Source: a virus
Length of the DNA stretch: 22,487 nucleotides
Direction: 5' to 3' (one strand)
IMG/VR virus record: IMGVR_UViG_3300048121_000107
Coordinates: 1 to 22,487 of that record
Positions 3,519 through 8,816 of the stretch are shown here, piece by piece (the stretch's first letter is position 1; every line of letters starts with the position of its first letter). Under the pieces are notes generated by a model, which had not been told where the DNA came from, searched no databases, and was given only the letters and a program-made list of their open reading frames with translations. Position numbers and translations under genes: made by a program.

Positions 3519-5570
3519 ATGGCAGAATTTTACGATACAGACCCTTTGCTGGTTGAAGAAACAATTGAGGATTGGGTCATTACCAAATGTGAGGATTGGC
3601 GTGACTATTATGAGTCGAATTATGAACAGCGTTTTGAGGAGTATTACCGACTCTGGCGTGGTATATGGGATCCTGCTGACAGCCAGCGTGGCTCTGAGCG
3701 TTCCCGTATTATTTCTCCTGCACTTCAACAGGCAGTTGAGTCTAATGTAGCGGAACTAGAAGAAGCTACGTTTGGACGTGGCAAGTGGTTTGACGTAAGT
3801 GACAACCTTGGTGACACCAATAAGCAAGACGTACAGTTTCTTCGTAACAAGCTTACAGAAGACTTTGAAGAATGCATGGTGCGTAAAGCAGTAGCAGAAT
3901 GCTTAATTAACGCAGCAGTCTTTGGTACAGGCGTTGGTGAAATAATCATTGAAGAAATGAAGGAGATGGCTCCTGCTACTCAACCTATTATGGGCGGAGA
4001 CTTGCAAGCAGTAGGAGTAAACATCACTGACCGTGTCAAAGTTAAGCTTAAACCTGTACTACCTCAGAACTTCCTAATTGACCCTGTAGCAACGTCTGTA
4101 GACGACGCTATGGGTGTTGCTGTGGATGAGTTTGTTAGTTTACACCAAGTTGAACTTTTGCAGGAACAAGGCGTGTACCGTGACGTGTACGTTGGTCCTG
4201 CTGCTCCTGATACTGACTTGGAACCTGACCAAGACATAACAATCTACAACGATGACAAAGTACGTCTTACTAAGTACTATGGTCTAGTGCCACGAGAGCT
4301 TCTCAAAAGCGCTACAGAGGACGATACAGAAGAACTAGGGCCTGAGCAAGACTCTAAGTCAAAGTACGTAGAAGCAGTCGTAGTAATCGCCAACAGCGGC
4401 ATTTTGTTAAAGGCTGAAGCTAACCCCTACATGATGACAGACCGTCCTGTGGTTGCTTTCCCTTGGGACGTAGTACCCGGACGTTTCTGGGGCCGTGGTG
4501 TTTGTGAAAAAGGCTACAACTCTCAGAAAGCTTTGGACACAGAGCTACGTGCAAGAATTGACGCACTAAGTCTTACGATCCATCCTATGATGGCTATTGA
4601 CGCAACTAGGCTACCTCGTGGTGCTAAACCCGAAGTACGCCCCGGAAAGATGATACTGACCAGTGGAAATCCTAAAGAAGTACTTCAACCGTTCAACTTT
4701 GGTAATGTTAACCAAATTACTTTTGCTCAAGCCGGAGCACTGCAGCAGATGGTACAACAAGCTACCGGAGCAGTGGACTCAGCAGGAATCGCTGGTAGTG
4801 TTAATGGCGAGGCTACTGCCGCTGGGATTAGTATGTCTCTTGGCGCTATTATTAAACGTCATAAGCGGACACTGATTAACTTCCAGCAGTCTTTCTTAAT
4901 ACCTTTTGTCAAGAAAGCAGCCTATAGGTATATGCAGTTTGATCCTGAGAACTACCCTGTAGCAGACTACAAGTTTAACGCTAGCAGTACTCTAGGTATT
5001 ATTGCTAGGGAGTACGAAGTAACTCAGCTTGTACAACTACTACAGACTATGCAAAAAGACTCACCGTTGTACAACACACTGATTCAAAGCATTATTGACA
5101 ACATGAACTTGTCTAACCGTGAAGAGCTTCTTACGGCTATGCAACAAGCTATGCAACCTAACCCGCAGCAGCAGCAAATGCAACAACAAGCACAACAGTT
5201 GCAAATGCAGTTCCAGCAGTCACAAACTGCAGCACTGTCTGCTCAGGCTCAAGAGTCACAAGCACGAGCTACTAAGCTGGCTGCAGAAGCCCAAGCAGTG
5301 CCTCAGGAACTTGAAATCGACCGTATTAACGCTGTTACCCGAAACCTTCGTGAAGGTGACGCAGAAGATAAAGAGTTTGAACGCCGTATGAAAGTGGCCG
5401 ATACTCTCCTCAAAGAAAAGCAGATAGAAGGTAAAACAAATGTTAACCGACCGGGAACTCCAACTCCTACTCAACCAAGTCCACAACCACTTCCAAGGGA
5501 CATTCCAACACCTAGCGGACCTACAAACCAAGGTGGACCACTTGGAAACCAAAGTGGAGGAACTCAGTAA
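3519..5570 (+). CDS. portal (head-tail connector) protein
   Basis: This 683-residue protein is the expected dodecameric portal, the channel for DNA at the capsid vertex and docking site for the terminase and tail. The N-terminal part has the usual pattern of an acidic, aromatic helix (EDWRDYYESNYEQRFEEYYR) followed by RSRIISPALQQAVESNVAEL and a G-x-G-K-W-F segment. Residues from about 541 to 569 are very glutamine-rich, followed by a charged helix to about 640 and a Pro/Thr/Gly/Gln-rich low-complexity tail to the end. AGGA lies 7 bases before the ATG. It directly follows the large terminase gene, as is typical. The low-complexity tail coincides with a second reading frame (5440-5643), which may explain its odd composition. 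At 683 residues it is longer than the T7 portal and nearer the large portals of P22-like phages. Confidence 0.9.
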   Translation: MAEFYDTDPLLVEETIEDWVITKCEDWRDYYESNYEQRFEEYYRLWRGIWDPADSQRGSERSRIISPALQQAVESNVAELEEATFGRGKWFDVSDNLGDTNKQDVQFLRNKLTEDFEECMVRKAVAECLINAAVFGTGVGEIIIEEMKEMAPATQPIMGGDLQAVGVNITDRVKVKLKPVLPQNFLIDPVATSVDDAMGVAVDEFVSLHQVELLQEQGVYRDVYVGPAAPDTDLEPDQDITIYNDDKVRLTKYYGLVPRELLKSATEDDTEELGPEQDSKSKYVEAVVVIANSGILLKAEANPYMMTDRPVVAFPWDVVPGRFWGRGVCEKGYNSQKALDTELRARIDALSLTIHPMMAIDATRLPRGAKPEVRPGKMILTSGNPKEVLQPFNFGNVNQITFAQAGALQQMVQQATGAVDSAGIAGSVNGEATAAGISMSLGAIIKRHKRTLINFQQSFLIPFVKKAAYRYMQFDPENYPVADYKFNASSTLGIIAREYEVTQLVQLLQTMQKDSPLYNTLIQSIIDNMNLSNREELLTAMQQAMQPNPQQQQMQQQAQQLQMQFQQSQTAALSAQAQESQARATKLAAEAQAVPQELEIDRINAVTRNLREGDAEDKEFERRMKVADTLLKEKQIEGKTNVNRPGTPTPTQPSPQPLPRDIPTPSGPTNQGGPLGNQSGGTQ

Positions 5571-5643
5571 TGCCAAAGTCCAAGGACCCAAAACTAGCAC
5601 GGGCGGGCGTAAGCGGGTACAACAAGCCAAAGCGGACGCCTAG
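5440..5643 (+). CDS. overprinted small coiled-coil protein in alternative frame
   Basis: A 67-codon frame overlaps the last 131 bases of the portal gene and the first 74 bases of the next gene, each in a different frame. The ATG is preceded by AAGG at 5428-5431 with 8 bases of spacing. The product has an unbroken 3-4 heptad pattern: L11, V14, F18, T21, L25, L28, V32, L35, V39 and L42. Charged and polar residues fill the other positions (for example TKVDHLETKVEELSN), and a basic tail follows (GGRKRVQQAKAD). Such regularity is unusual for a chance frame, and the portal frame here is low complexity, as expected if the coiled-coil frame is under constraint. No family is recognised. It could be a small scaffold-like or oligomerising factor. 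Chance translation remains possible, since the Q/P/T-rich portal tail could yield a helical frame by composition. Confidence 0.5.
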   Translation: MLTDRELQLLLNQVHNHFQGTFQHLADLQTKVDHLETKVEELSNAKVQGPKTSTGGRKRVQQAKADA

Positions 5644-5836
5644 CCACCCAACGAAGAAGTTTGTAGTAGTAGCCAAGGAAGGTGACAAGACTAAGACTAT
5701 TCGTTTTGGTGACGCTAAGATGACTATTAAGAAAGACCAGCCTGCACGTCGTAAGTCGTTCAGAGCACGTCACAAGTGTGACACTAATCCACCTAGTAAA
5801 CTAACGGCACGATACTGGTCGTGTAAGAAGTGGTGA
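5570..5836 (+). CDS. basic phage protein, 88 aa, unknown function
   Basis: The ATG shares its first base with the portal stop codon (TAATG), and a good GGAGG at 5556-5560 lies 9 bases upstream inside the portal gene. The protein is rich in lysine and arginine. Its N-terminus (SKDPKLARAGVSGYNKPKRT) resembles small proteins found repeatedly in marine phage head modules. A central beta-like stretch (KFVVVAKEGDKTKTIRFGDA) is followed by RRKSFRARHKC, then a second cysteine near the end (YWSCKKW). The charge suggests nucleic acid binding, perhaps as a minor virion component, but no function is known to me. It is the first and one of the largest of five consecutive basic proteins. Confidence 0.82.
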   Translation: MPKSKDPKLARAGVSGYNKPKRTPSHPTKKFVVVAKEGDKTKTIRFGDAKMTIKKDQPARRKSFRARHKCDTNPPSKLTARYWSCKKW

Positions 5837-5840
5837 TAAT

Positions 5841-5987
5841 ATGAAAGTCAATGCGCCTAAAGGCCATCACTGGATGAAGAGCGGCAAAGGTTATAAACTA
5901 ATGAAAGACCCTGCAGACGGCTACAAGCCACACAAGGGTGCGTCTAAGTCTGCAAACTTTGAAGTCCAGAAAGTTCACAAAAAGTAA
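5841..5987 (+). CDS. basic microprotein, 48 aa
   Basis: A complete 48-codon gene begins with ATG four bases after the preceding stop and ends in TAA at 5985-5987. The product starts MKVNAPKGHHWMKSGKGYKL and ends SANFEVQKVHKK. It has 12 lysines, four histidines and only three acidic residues, for a net charge of about +9. Its position between two basic genes in the same direction, with almost no spacing, argues that it is translated. The ribosome binding site is weak (GGTGAT), so coupling to the upstream gene is likely. Function is unknown; it could bind nucleic acid, and a H-H-W pattern near the N-terminus is notable. Confidence 0.72.
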   Translation: MKVNAPKGHHWMKSGKGYKLMKDPADGYKPHKGASKSANFEVQKVHKK

Positions 5988-5997
5988 GGAGGCTACC

Positions 5998-6057
5998 ATG
6001 CCAAACTGTTCAGGTAAGCGAAAGAAGAAAGGCAAGAGCAAACCCAAGGGGTACTAA
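5998..6057 (+). CDS. 19-residue lysine-rich micropeptide
   Basis: The sequence AAGGAGG (5986-5992), the best ribosome binding site in the block, lies 5 bases before an ATG that opens a 19-codon frame ending in TAA: MPNCSGKRKKKGKSKPKGY. Eight of 19 residues are Lys or Arg and none is acidic. It fills the gap between two other basic genes and ends two bases before the next ATG. A strong binding site in front of so short a frame suggests real translation, either for the peptide itself or to feed ribosomes to the next gene. Confidence 0.55.
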   Translation: MPNCSGKRKKKGKSKPKGY

Positions 6058-6059
6058 AG

Positions 6060-6221
6060 ATGCCTAAAGCTAAAACTAAGAAAGCTAACGACGCTTGTGC
6101 AAAGAAGGTCAAGTCCAGATACAAGGTCTGGCCTTCTGCATACGCCTCTGGTGCTGTAGCTAAATGCCGCAAAGTCGGCGCTAAGAACTGGGGTAACAAA
6201 AGTGGCCGTAAGAAAAAGTAA
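6060..6221 (+). CDS. basic microprotein, 53 aa, with SRYKVWPSAYASGAV motif
   Basis: This 53-codon gene has AAGGGG at 6046-6051, 8 bases before its ATG. It encodes 15 lysines and three arginines against one aspartate, about +17 net. The central motif K-V-K-S-R-Y-K-V-W-P-S-A-Y-A-S-G-A-V (residues 16-33), followed by AKCRKVG and KNWG, has the look of a small domain I associate with many phage and algal-virus genomes; no function is established to my knowledge. Two cysteines (C13 and C36) could pair or bind metal. The gene overlaps the next by 20 bases. It is too dense in aromatic and conserved-looking residues to be a chance lysine-rich frame. Confidence 0.78.
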   Translation: MPKAKTKKANDACAKKVKSRYKVWPSAYASGAVAKCRKVGAKNWGNKSGRKKK

Positions 6222-6474
6222 GAAAGGCGCTGCCCTCAAGAAGTGGTTTAATGAGGAGTGGGTAGACGTTAAGACAGGCAAACCTTGTGGGCGTAAGTCT
6301 GCAAAGAAGGGTGAGTCTAAACGTCCGTACCCCTCTTGTAGGCCTAAAGCTGTTGCGGCTAAGATGACTAAAGCTGAAAAGGCTTCTTCTGCACGACGTA
6401 AGACAGGACCTAAGCGTATAGCACATGCAGTTACTGCTTCAGGCAAACGTAGGAAATCTACAAGAAATGCTTGA
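6202..6474 (+). CDS. basic phage protein, 90 aa, with KWFNEEWVDVKTGKPCGR motif
   Basis: The frame starts with GTG at 6202, inside the previous gene, preceded by TGGGG at about 6189-6193; no ATG is available near the conserved N-terminus. The protein contains ALKKWFNEEWVDV (about residues 10-22), then GKPCGRKS, and YPSCRP near residues 47-52, with a basic alanine-rich C-terminus. Small proteins with the order KxxWxKExWVD, PCGR, YPxCRP occur in phages and related elements, from memory; the two cysteine motifs could hold a zinc ion. The last codons (GCT TGA) overlap the -35 box of a strong promoter. It is the last of the five basic proteins and the function is unknown. Confidence 0.8.
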   Translation: MAVRKSKKGAALKKWFNEEWVDVKTGKPCGRKSAKKGESKRPYPSCRPKAVAAKMTKAEKASSARRKTGPKRIAHAVTASGKRRKSTRNA

Positions 6475-6499
6475 CAACTGCTAAAAAGTATGATATAAT
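6471..6499 (+). promoter_or_regulatory. full-consensus sigma-70 promoter with extended -10
   Basis: TTGACA (6471-6476), a 17-base spacer and TATAAT (6494-6499) match the sigma-70 consensus at all 12 positions, and TGA at 6491-6493 adds an extended -10. The -35 overlaps the TGA stop (6472-6474) of the upstream gene. Transcription should begin near 6506, with AGAGGA (6521-6526) then placed 4 bases before the ATG at 6531. It would give strong host-driven expression of the scaffold and coat genes. Confidence 0.88.
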
Positions 6500-6530: not shown

Positions 6531-6785
6531 ATGACTCCAGAGCTTGAAACCTACTTCGACAACTACAACGAACTCTTCAATCACGAAGGTTTCAAACAAC
6601 TCTTGCAAGAGCTTTCCACAAACGCACAACAGTTGGCAGATATACAGACTGTAAAAGACGTAGAAGATCTCTTCTTTCGTAAAGGTCAGGTAGCTGCTTT
6701 TGCAACAGTAATCAATCTACAGGGTACTATAGAGGTTGCCAGAGAGCAAGCTGAAGTAGAAGAAGAAGGCCCAGTAGATGTATAA
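6531..6785 (+). CDS. small acidic protein of the head module
   Basis: This is the first gene after the consensus promoter, with AGAGGA just upstream. The 84-residue product is acidic and looks almost wholly helical. An N-terminal segment rich in Tyr, Phe and Asn (ETYFDNYNELFNHEGFKQLL) leads into a helix ending in a run of glutamates (EQAEVEEEGPVDV). No cysteine, membrane segment or known motif is present. Proteins of this size and character sit just upstream of the scaffold in several marine podoviruses, but the role is not established; an assembly cofactor is one guess. It overlaps the zinc-ribbon gene by 8 bases, so the two are probably made together. Confidence 0.78.
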   Translation: MTPELETYFDNYNELFNHEGFKQLLQELSTNAQQLADIQTVKDVEDLFFRKGQVAAFATVINLQGTIEVAREQAEVEEEGPVDV

Positions 6786-7002
6786 AATCTACGACTTCCG
6801 TTGTACTAACGGACATGTCACAGAAGAATTTGTAAAGGATAACGTCACAGAAAGTAGGTGCAAAACCTGTGGCGAACCCTCTACAAGAATGGTATCTGCC
6901 CCGTCTTTTCACCTTGATGGCTCTACTGGGGACTTCCCCGGTCAGCACATGAAGTGGGTACGAGAACACGAAAAAGCAGGTAGAAAGAAATCTCCACAAT
7001 GA
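6778..7002 (+). CDS. FmdB-like zinc ribbon protein
   Basis: The 74-residue protein starts within the previous gene and shows the pattern of the FmdB-type zinc ribbon: an aromatic start (YKIYDFRC) with C9 and nearby H13, then C28-x-x-C31 followed by GEPSTRMVSAPSFHLDG. The last segment is typical of the family, where it follows the metal knuckle. The first half-site is C-x-x-G-H rather than the usual C-x-x-C, so metal binding would use C9, H13, C28 and C31, or only some of them. The C-terminus is basic and probably flexible. The family has no proven biochemical role in phages; it could bind nucleic acid, regulate, or aid assembly. Confidence 0.78.
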   Translation: MYKIYDFRCTNGHVTEEFVKDNVTESRCKTCGEPSTRMVSAPSFHLDGSTGDFPGQHMKWVREHEKAGRKKSPQ

Positions 7003-7023
7003 TTATAATCACGGAGTTTAATT

Positions 7024-7821
7024 ATGTCAAAAGCTATGATGCTTGATCCACAGCCTGAAGAGGACAACGTGGACACCATTGAAAACGAAGTTGATGAGAT
7101 TCAACAACCCCAAGAGGAAGTTGAGCAACCTCAAGAAGAACCAAACCTACCAGAGAAGTACCAAAATAAGTCTCTAGAAGAAGTTGTACAGATGCACCAA
7201 GAAGCTGAAAAGCTATTGGGTCGTCAGTCTTCTGAGGTAGGAGAACTTCGTAAGGTTGTAGATGATTACATTAGTACTCAAACGCAACCACCAGCACCTC
7301 AACAATACGTTGAGCCTGAAGACGATATAGACTATTTTACAGATCCTCAAGGCGCTGTTAATCGTGCTATTGAGAACCATCCTAAGATAAGAGAAGCACA
7401 AGAGTACTCAGAGCAGTACAAGAAGCAGTCATCTTTGGCTACGCTTCAAAACAAGCATCCAGATATGCAAACAATCCTTGGTGACCCCAAGTTTGCAGAA
7501 TGGATCAAAGCTTCTAAAATTAGGACTCAGTTGTTTGTACAAGCTGACCAACAGTACGATGCTGAATCTGCTGACGAACTGTTTACACTCTGGAAAGAAC
7601 GTAAAACAGTAGCACAGCAGACTGCCAAAGTTGAAAAACAGGCACGTAAGCAGACACTTAAGGCAGCTAACACAGGCAATGCACGAGGTAGTGCTGAAGG
7701 TAGTCGTAAGAAGGTATATCGCAGGGCCGACATTATTAAACTTATGAAGAATGACCCTGACCGTTATCAAGCTTTGTCCGATGAAATCATGGCGGCTTAT
7801 GCGGAGGGTCGAGTCAAATAA
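7024..7821 (+). CDS. scaffolding protein
   Basis: The 265-residue product directly precedes the coat gene and has the usual scaffold build. The N-terminal 50 residues are acidic, glutamine-rich and probably disordered (EEVEQPQEEPNLPEKY). A helical middle with likely coiled-coil stretches follows, and then a basic C-terminal region (KQARKQTLK, EGSRKKVYRRADIIKLMKND), as expected for the part that docks on the coat protein. GGAG lies 7 bases before the ATG. Scaffolds guide coat protein into a prohead of the right size and are then lost. The sequence has no recognisable protease motif. The identification rests on position and composition, both strong; direct family recognition is moderate. Confidence 0.85.
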   Translation: MSKAMMLDPQPEEDNVDTIENEVDEIQQPQEEVEQPQEEPNLPEKYQNKSLEEVVQMHQEAEKLLGRQSSEVGELRKVVDDYISTQTQPPAPQQYVEPEDDIDYFTDPQGAVNRAIENHPKIREAQEYSEQYKKQSSLATLQNKHPDMQTILGDPKFAEWIKASKIRTQLFVQADQQYDAESADELFTLWKERKTVAQQTAKVEKQARKQTLKAANTGNARGSAEGSRKKVYRRADIIKLMKNDPDRYQALSDEIMAAYAEGRVK

Positions 7822-7835
7822 TCTAGGAGATTGAC

Positions 7836-8816
7836 ATGGCTACTGCAACTTATCCCGGTGCAGCGGGTAATACTGCGAAGACTGAAGCGGCTACTTTTAT
7901 TCCAGAAATCTGGAGTGATGAGATTATTGCTGCTTACCAAAAGAACCTGAAGATGGCTCCACTTGTCAAGCGTATCGCTATGAATGGCAAGAAGGGCGAC
8001 AAGCTTCACATTCCAAAGCCAACTCGTGGCGATGCAAATGCTAAGGCTGCTGACACTGCAGTTACTATCATTGCAAACACTGAGAGCGAACTGACTGTTG
8101 ACATCGACCGTCACTTCGAGTACTCACGTTTGATCGAAGACATCGTTGAAGTACAGGCGCTTTCTAGCCTCCGTCAGTTCTACACTGAAGACGCTGGTTA
8201 TGCTCTTGCTACAAAAATCGACACCGACCTCCACTCTTGTGGTACTGGTTTTGGTGACGGTGGTTCTGTTGTGTTCTCTGGCTCAGTAGCTCCTACTGAC
8301 TACCAGCACAGCGGTTGTTTCTTCAACGACGGTGGTACAACTACTCAGTACACTGACGATACTATCGTTCCTGCTGACGTGTTTACCGATGCGTTCTTCC
8401 GTGACATGATTCAGAAGCTTGACGACAACAACGTACCAATGGAAAGCCGTGTACTTGTTATCCCACCTTCGGTTCGTAACACCATCATGGGTGTTGACCG
8501 ATACGTGTCTTCTGACTTCGTAACTGGTCAAGCAGTAAGCTCAGGCCTTATCGGTAACCTGTACGGTGTAGACATCTACGTCTCAAACAACTGTGCAACT
8601 ATCGAAGCAGCAGCAGACAACACTGCTGGATCTGCTGATACTCGTGCAGCACTCTTGTTCCACCGTGACGCTATTGTCATGGCAGAGCAGCAAGCTGTTC
8701 GTTCACAGACTCAGTACAAGCAGGAATACCTCTCAACTCTGTACACGGCTGATTGCCTCTACGGTGTTGAAGTATACCGACCTGAAGCTGGTTTCGTACT
8801 CGCAGTCGCTGAGTAA
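7836..8816 (+). CDS. major capsid protein
   Basis: This 326-residue protein follows the scaffold by 14 bases and has AGGAGA 5 bases before the ATG, suiting the most abundant product of the module. The N-terminal section (TFIPEIWSDEIIAAYQKNLK, then VKRIAMNGKKGDKLHIPKP) matches the opening of HK97-fold coat proteins of many marine podoviruses and siphoviruses. The middle contains a glycine-rich, loop-like segment (about residues 135-170) that may form a surface domain. The C-terminal part (LIGNLYGVDIYVSNN, then a strand-rich end) fits the A-domain. There is no N-terminal protease or delta domain, consistent with a separate scaffold. A hairpin with a T-run just beyond the stop may limit readthrough into the fibre gene. 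Confidence 0.92.
   Translation: MATATYPGAAGNTAKTEAATFIPEIWSDEIIAAYQKNLKMAPLVKRIAMNGKKGDKLHIPKPTRGDANAKAADTAVTIIANTESELTVDIDRHFEYSRLIEDIVEVQALSSLRQFYTEDAGYALATKIDTDLHSCGTGFGDGGSVVFSGSVAPTDYQHSGCFFNDGGTTTQYTDDTIVPADVFTDAFFRDMIQKLDDNNVPMESRVLVIPPSVRNTIMGVDRYVSSDFVTGQAVSSGLIGNLYGVDIYVSNNCATIEAAADNTAGSADTRAALLFHRDAIVMAEQQAVRSQTQYKQEYLSTLYTADCLYGVEVYRPEAGFVLAVAE

Follow-up and report, generated by a model that had tools for sequence, protein, structure and literature searches.

What five consecutive genes for small, lysine-rich proteins might do directly downstream of a phage portal gene was the question raised by a marine phage, IMG/VR record IMGVR_UViG_3300048121_000107 (positions 1 to 22,487; this whole stretch of 22,487 bases is referred to as the window), in which large terminase, portal, probable scaffold and capsid genes were identified. 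The five genes, here called the cassette, are real, conserved and co-inherited, and modules related to them are present in virion-detected proteins of other phages and fused to capsid proteases. A role in the head interior is most likely, because relatives of B1, B4 and B5 (see below) are built into head proteins, including capsid proteases and virion proteins. Judged from such sequence relationships, location of the standalone proteins in the phage head is somewhat probable, and the full proposal, that they lie in the head and bind the packaged DNA, which also draws on analogy with T4, is given a probability of about 0.5. The cassette is composed as follows (net charge calculated as K + R minus D + E):

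5570-5836, plus strand: B1 (gene 1), 88 amino acids (aa), net charge +20; weakly Tlr6F/DUF5754-like module with a C-terminal ARYWSCKKW motif; phrog_7595
5841-5987, plus strand: B2 (gene 2), 48 aa, +9; unassigned in Pfam and PHROG, with relatives among phages of Pelagibacter and Roseobacter
5998-6057, plus strand: gene 3, 19 aa, +8, MPNCSGKRKKKGKSKPKGY; ribosome-binding site AAGGAGG; variants at the same position in relatives
6060-6221, plus strand: B4 (gene 4), 53 aa, +17; DACxxKVKxRYKVWPSAYASGA...CRKVGAxNWGNK module, embedded in cyanophage virion proteins
6202-6474, plus strand: B5 (gene 5), 90 aa, +24; GTG start overlapping B4; DUF5872 family

Conservation and co-inheritance of the five genes

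The positions and lengths given in the initial annotation (five genes at 5570-6474, of 88, 48, 19, 53 and 90 codons) were borne out, as was their strongly basic character: isoelectric points were 10.1-11.4, and all other tabulated genes of the window had net charges between -168 and +3, leaving the cassette as the sole strongly basic genes. The start of B1 overlaps the portal stop codon (TAATG), gaps of 4, 10 and 2 nucleotides follow, and B4 and B5 overlap by 20 nucleotides. The paired cysteines noted earlier for some of the proteins were found in B1 (C70/C85), B4 (C13/C36) and B5 (C29/C46); B2 lacks such a pair and gene 3 has a single cysteine.

Ratios of nonsynonymous to synonymous polymorphism (pN/pS), computed against ungapped IMG/VR homologues, had medians of 0.02 for B1, 0.06 for B2, 0.05 for B4 (only 10 comparisons) and 0.09 for B5; genes 1, 2, 4 and 5 are under strong purifying selection. 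Between B2 and B4, a lysine-rich open reading frame (ORF) of less than 50 aa was present in 92 of 94 relatives (one or two of them doubtful), usually behind TAAGGAG. The GTG start of B5 was supported, as standalone B5 homologues begin with ATG at the same residue. Chance or non-functional ORFs, an explanation suggested by the short length and skewed composition of the genes, are highly improbable, being ruled out for genes 1, 2, 4 and 5 by selection, kept order, ribosome-binding sites and homologues in hundreds of phages. The earlier remark that so dense a set is hard to explain as leftover sequence thus stood, on the low pN/pS values together with the recurrence of gene 3 behind a ribosome-binding site. 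The recurrence of the gene order in other contigs, proposed as a check, was also found: dozens of loci, all relatives fetched by homology, share the order terminase-portal-B1-(B2)-B4-B5-acidic-zinc ribbon-scaffold-capsid, which by itself says little on function because these loci are related and were selected by homology.

More informative were unrelated phages, in which B1, B4 and B5 (often with B2) co-occur with their order changed and apart from the portal. Roseobacter phage CRP-901 has B4-B5-B2-B1, Pelagibacter phage HTVC106P has B1-B2-(B4-like)-B5, CRP-2 and C72C1 both have B1-(B4-like)-B5, CRP-902 has B4-B5 and then B1, and L182 has B2-B1-B4-B5. The set adjoins the terminase gene in CRP-2, an M15 peptidase (endolysin-type) gene in HTVC106P and other late genes elsewhere; the cassette genes travel together without the portal, and a portal-specific role is unsupported. 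Separate mini-genes of this kind are often missed by gene callers, and the B2, B4 and B5 genes beside B1 homologues were partly unannotated in public records.

Cassette modules in head proteins of other phages

In marine T4-like phages the modules reside inside proteins of about 130-880 aa, often several per neighbourhood. Some of these proteins have N-termini (MKTFSQFLLEA, MKTFQEFILEA, MKSFKEFIKEA) which have the form of the T4 capsid-targeting sequence. A T4-like targeting peptide, at the start or within, was present in 7-8 of 67 module-bearing proteins, compared with 0 of 274 other long ORFs on the same contigs. In S-CREM2, a motif search over 137 kb returned six ORFs, all six in the published virion MS list. 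Directly before B4, a hydrophobic-x-E-[AGSKQ] motif was found in 18 of 26 non-redundant precursors (shuffle mean 4.0, maximum 10). This motif resembles T4-type prohead protease sites, and the precursors are probably cut before the B4 module. A targeting-type N-terminus and a cleavage-like motif are thus common to these precursors and to T4-type internal proteins; in T4 the targeting sequence comprises about 10 residues and is conserved in IPII and IPIII (PMC9958956).

Two such proteins are linked to virions. S-CREM2 gp160, the only place in that genome with B4 and also carrying a B5-like stretch, is present (as ORF160) in the virion list obtained by mass spectrometry (MS), with 7 unique peptides and 13.1% coverage (PMC10665884). 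S-SCSM1 gp029, the sole B4 place there, combines B5, B4 and DUF6321 modules and is labelled 'virion protein' in its record; 45 virion proteins were reported by MS for this phage (PMC9602691). The proteome of the siphovirus P-SS2 was uninformative: 40 kb of this phage contained none of the modules, and its complete record lacked B1 and B4. S-SZBM1 has no B4 anywhere in its genome, and no usable small-protein virion proteome of a Pelagibacter phage was found in the literature.

Two further proteins with similar N-termini were observed: Melnitz-3 gp18 (L318:1803-3755) begins with the targeting-like sequence MKKFSEIIEA and also contains a cytidylyltransferase-like domain, DUF5824 and B1, and the Cas9-like S-CREM2 gp12 (L313:7704-10313), present in the virion list, has a targeting-like stretch, RFASFMAEA, near its N-terminus.

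B1 was found fused to capsid proteases. ICP1 gp125, annotated as a capsid protease and encoded between portal and scaffold, consists of Peptidase_S78_2 followed by B1, while in Aeromonas phiA009 and Vibrio qdvp001 B1 lies ahead of Peptidase_S78_2, in a head-gene cluster; the opposite order suggests separate fusions. In these proteases B1 forms a module at one end, whereas in the window it is a gene of its own, in which no protease domain was detected by family search. The predicted B1 structure (mean predicted local distance difference test score, pLDDT, 84) is a hairpin with two helices, and its fold matches among viral predicted structures included ICP1 ORF125, an XkdF protein and a ChaB protein; it had no fold match in the Protein Data Bank. 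Profiles of B1, B4 and B5 had no sequence match among solved structures, and the B4 model (pLDDT 69) was too weak for a fold search. A zinc finger was considered for B1 and rejected: a subfamily has lost both cysteines together and keeps the rest of the protein, which shows that the family can do without metal binding; the cysteines may form a disulfide or an optional metal site.

The protease fusions in three phages, the coupling of the cassette to the portal gene and its position ahead of a probable scaffold with an acidic N-terminal half could also be read as signs of assembly helpers, that is, basic partners of the scaffold, portal or protease that depart ahead of maturation or in its course and are not virion cargo. 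We consider this unlikely, as B4/B5 precursors are present in mature virions and the set is distant from portal and scaffold in several phages.

Proposed role of the cassette proteins

The initial annotation had offered DNA condensation, binding of host chromatin or RNA, and association with the portal as possible roles. Packaged DNA-condensing proteins or head factors are favoured here, given the homologous modules in head-packaged and head-maturation proteins; the portal-specific part was not upheld, as the set also occurs far from the portal. The cassette proteins would be made late, together with the portal, enter the procapsid, bind the packaged DNA and neutralise its phosphate, and perhaps exit with the DNA. 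Precedent is provided by the lysine-rich internal proteins of T4, of which only the lysines contact the packaged DNA phosphate (PMC3012670). IPI-IPIII are small, basic and lysine-rich, as are the cassette proteins, a likeness that is not based on sequence homology. T4 internal proteins carry a targeting sequence, whereas the window's five proteins have no N-terminal capsid-targeting sequence and no precursor; their entry into the head might, as a guess, depend on charge pairing with the acidic scaffold or with an acidic 84-aa protein encoded nearby. What emerges looks like one function with two encodings: in some phages the modules belong to large head precursors that are probably cleaved, and in others they are separate mini-genes arranged in a row. 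Marine T4-like phages would use the larger precursors, some of them with a targeting peptide and with a probable prohead-protease site ahead of the module. In the window lineage the region from portal to capsid genes yielded no head protease, and there the modules would be encoded already separate and would need no cutting from a precursor.

If the head were a delivery route only, the proteins could be injected or early host-takeover factors, for instance nucleoid- or RNA-binding, in the manner of T4 IPI. Counter-defence factors are included among the T4 internal proteins (PMC3012670, PMC9958956), S-CREM2 packages enzymes bearing the same N-terminal motif, and in Melnitz-3 gp18 a single protein unites B1 with a nucleotidyltransferase and a targeting-like N-terminus. 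This explanation appears quite unlikely in view of the pN/pS values of 0.02-0.09 and the broad host spread, which are unlike those of fast-changing counter-defence proteins. A role played in the infected cell without entry into the head, such as that of RNA chaperones or late-expression regulators, would suit very basic small proteins, which readily bind RNA, and the variable gene context; it is improbable given that module-bearing proteins were detected by MS in virions and that capsid-protease fusions exist.

Several observations count against a DNA-binding role in the head. Basic charge is equally compatible with RNA binding, and the HTVC106P set lies near an endolysin-type gene, outside the head genes. 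The targeting motif occurs in only about one-eighth of module-bearing proteins, and two motif-bearing proteins of S-SZBM1 (one with a DUF6321-like C-terminus) are missing from its 30-protein MS list. The pattern used in the S-CREM2 motif search was written after the N-termini of that phage had been viewed, which makes the search a specificity check and not a blind one. The virion label of S-SCSM1 gp029 is a record annotation, unchecked against the supplementary table. No proteome exists for the phage of the window, and none was found for phages with standalone B proteins.

Family relationships and flanking features

B1 scored 17 bits against DUF5754/Tlr6F (PF19058), below the curated cut-off of 27.4, which was reached by 0 of the 14 phage records searched; 13 of 25 B1 relatives matched the profile at E values up to 0.01 (best 1.5e-4). 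Foldseek matched B1 to Tunisvirus V9SE36, a possible Tlr6F member (probability 0.93, E 0.18). In its small size and in a profile match below the Pfam cut-off, B1 thus weakly resembles Tlr6F/DUF5754, a family shared with viruses of algae and protists. B5 scored 27.6 bits against DUF5872 (PF19197; cut-off 27.5), and 15 of 20 B5 relatives matched (best 3.5e-16); by these profile scores B5 is a DUF5872 member, spanning only positions 49-90 of the 116-position model of this family of unknown function. PHROG matches (phrog_7595 and phrog_9979 for B1, phrog_727 for B4 and phrog_23735 for B5) are all listed as of unknown function, and B4 makes up only part of the phrog_727 proteins. The label 'HVA1 family protein', given in the records to B1 of CRP-901 and CRP-902 (L008:4129-4386, L010:2968-3225), was not retained, as window B1 had no such match in Pfam or NCBIfam. 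B4 is close to virus-only: genomes of 84,980 species contained 23 relatives, all in metagenome-assembled genomes and 0 in isolates, and a cellular origin was rejected.

Tlr6F-like proteins, which are small and of no known structure or function, have been described as conserved in almost every polinton-like virus, in many giant viruses and several virophages, and in some phages (PMC4642659); PMC12220804 likewise reports the family from these virus groups. The phage evidence points these proteins to the head interior and capsid maturation, and a ten-year-old question becomes testable in cultured marine phages. It is conceivable, if doubtful, that a toolkit of small lysine-rich modules for the capsid interior, with Tlr6F/DUF5754, DUF5872 and further members such as DUF6321, is common to tailed phages, giant viruses, virophages and polinton-like viruses. 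Such modules would serve viruses as chromatin proteins serve cells, and would be shuffled among standalone genes, protease fusions and cleaved precursors.

The cassette does lie between portal and scaffold, as first described, with two genes and a conserved promoter of their own intervening before the scaffold:

3519-5570, plus strand: portal gene (SU10/P22-like), its 3' end overlapping the start of B1
6471-6499, plus strand: predicted consensus sigma-70 promoter, TTGACA-17-TATAAT, overlapping the B5 stop
6531-6785: acidic 84-aa gene, net charge -12, between cassette and scaffold
6778-7002: FmdB-type zinc-ribbon gene, between cassette and scaffold
7024-7821, plus strand: probable scaffold gene (weak match to a scaffolding family; N-terminal half acidic)
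7836-8816, plus strand: major capsid protein gene (family matches)

The portal has about 25% identity to isolate portals, including those of HMO-2011-type and Roseobacter phages. The zinc-ribbon gene had a pN/pS of 0.80, a value from just 6 comparisons that may reflect an alignment artefact. No RNA families were found in the window. The promoter matches the consensus at 12 of 12 positions with a 17-bp spacer, and 0-1 mismatches were seen in 137 of 139 relatives, compared with 3 of 417 random segments. Lying between the cassette and the genes for the acidic, zinc-ribbon, scaffold and capsid proteins, it would let scaffold and capsid be expressed apart from portal and cassette. A second 12/12 promoter-like match (7002-7030, minus strand), antisense across the scaffold start, occurs unchanged in 59 of 141 relatives but is disrupted in others, and is perhaps a by-product of the scaffold start region. 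Upstream of the large terminase gene, positions 1198-1584 encode a 128-aa protein that contains an AT-hook motif and may be the small terminase subunit.

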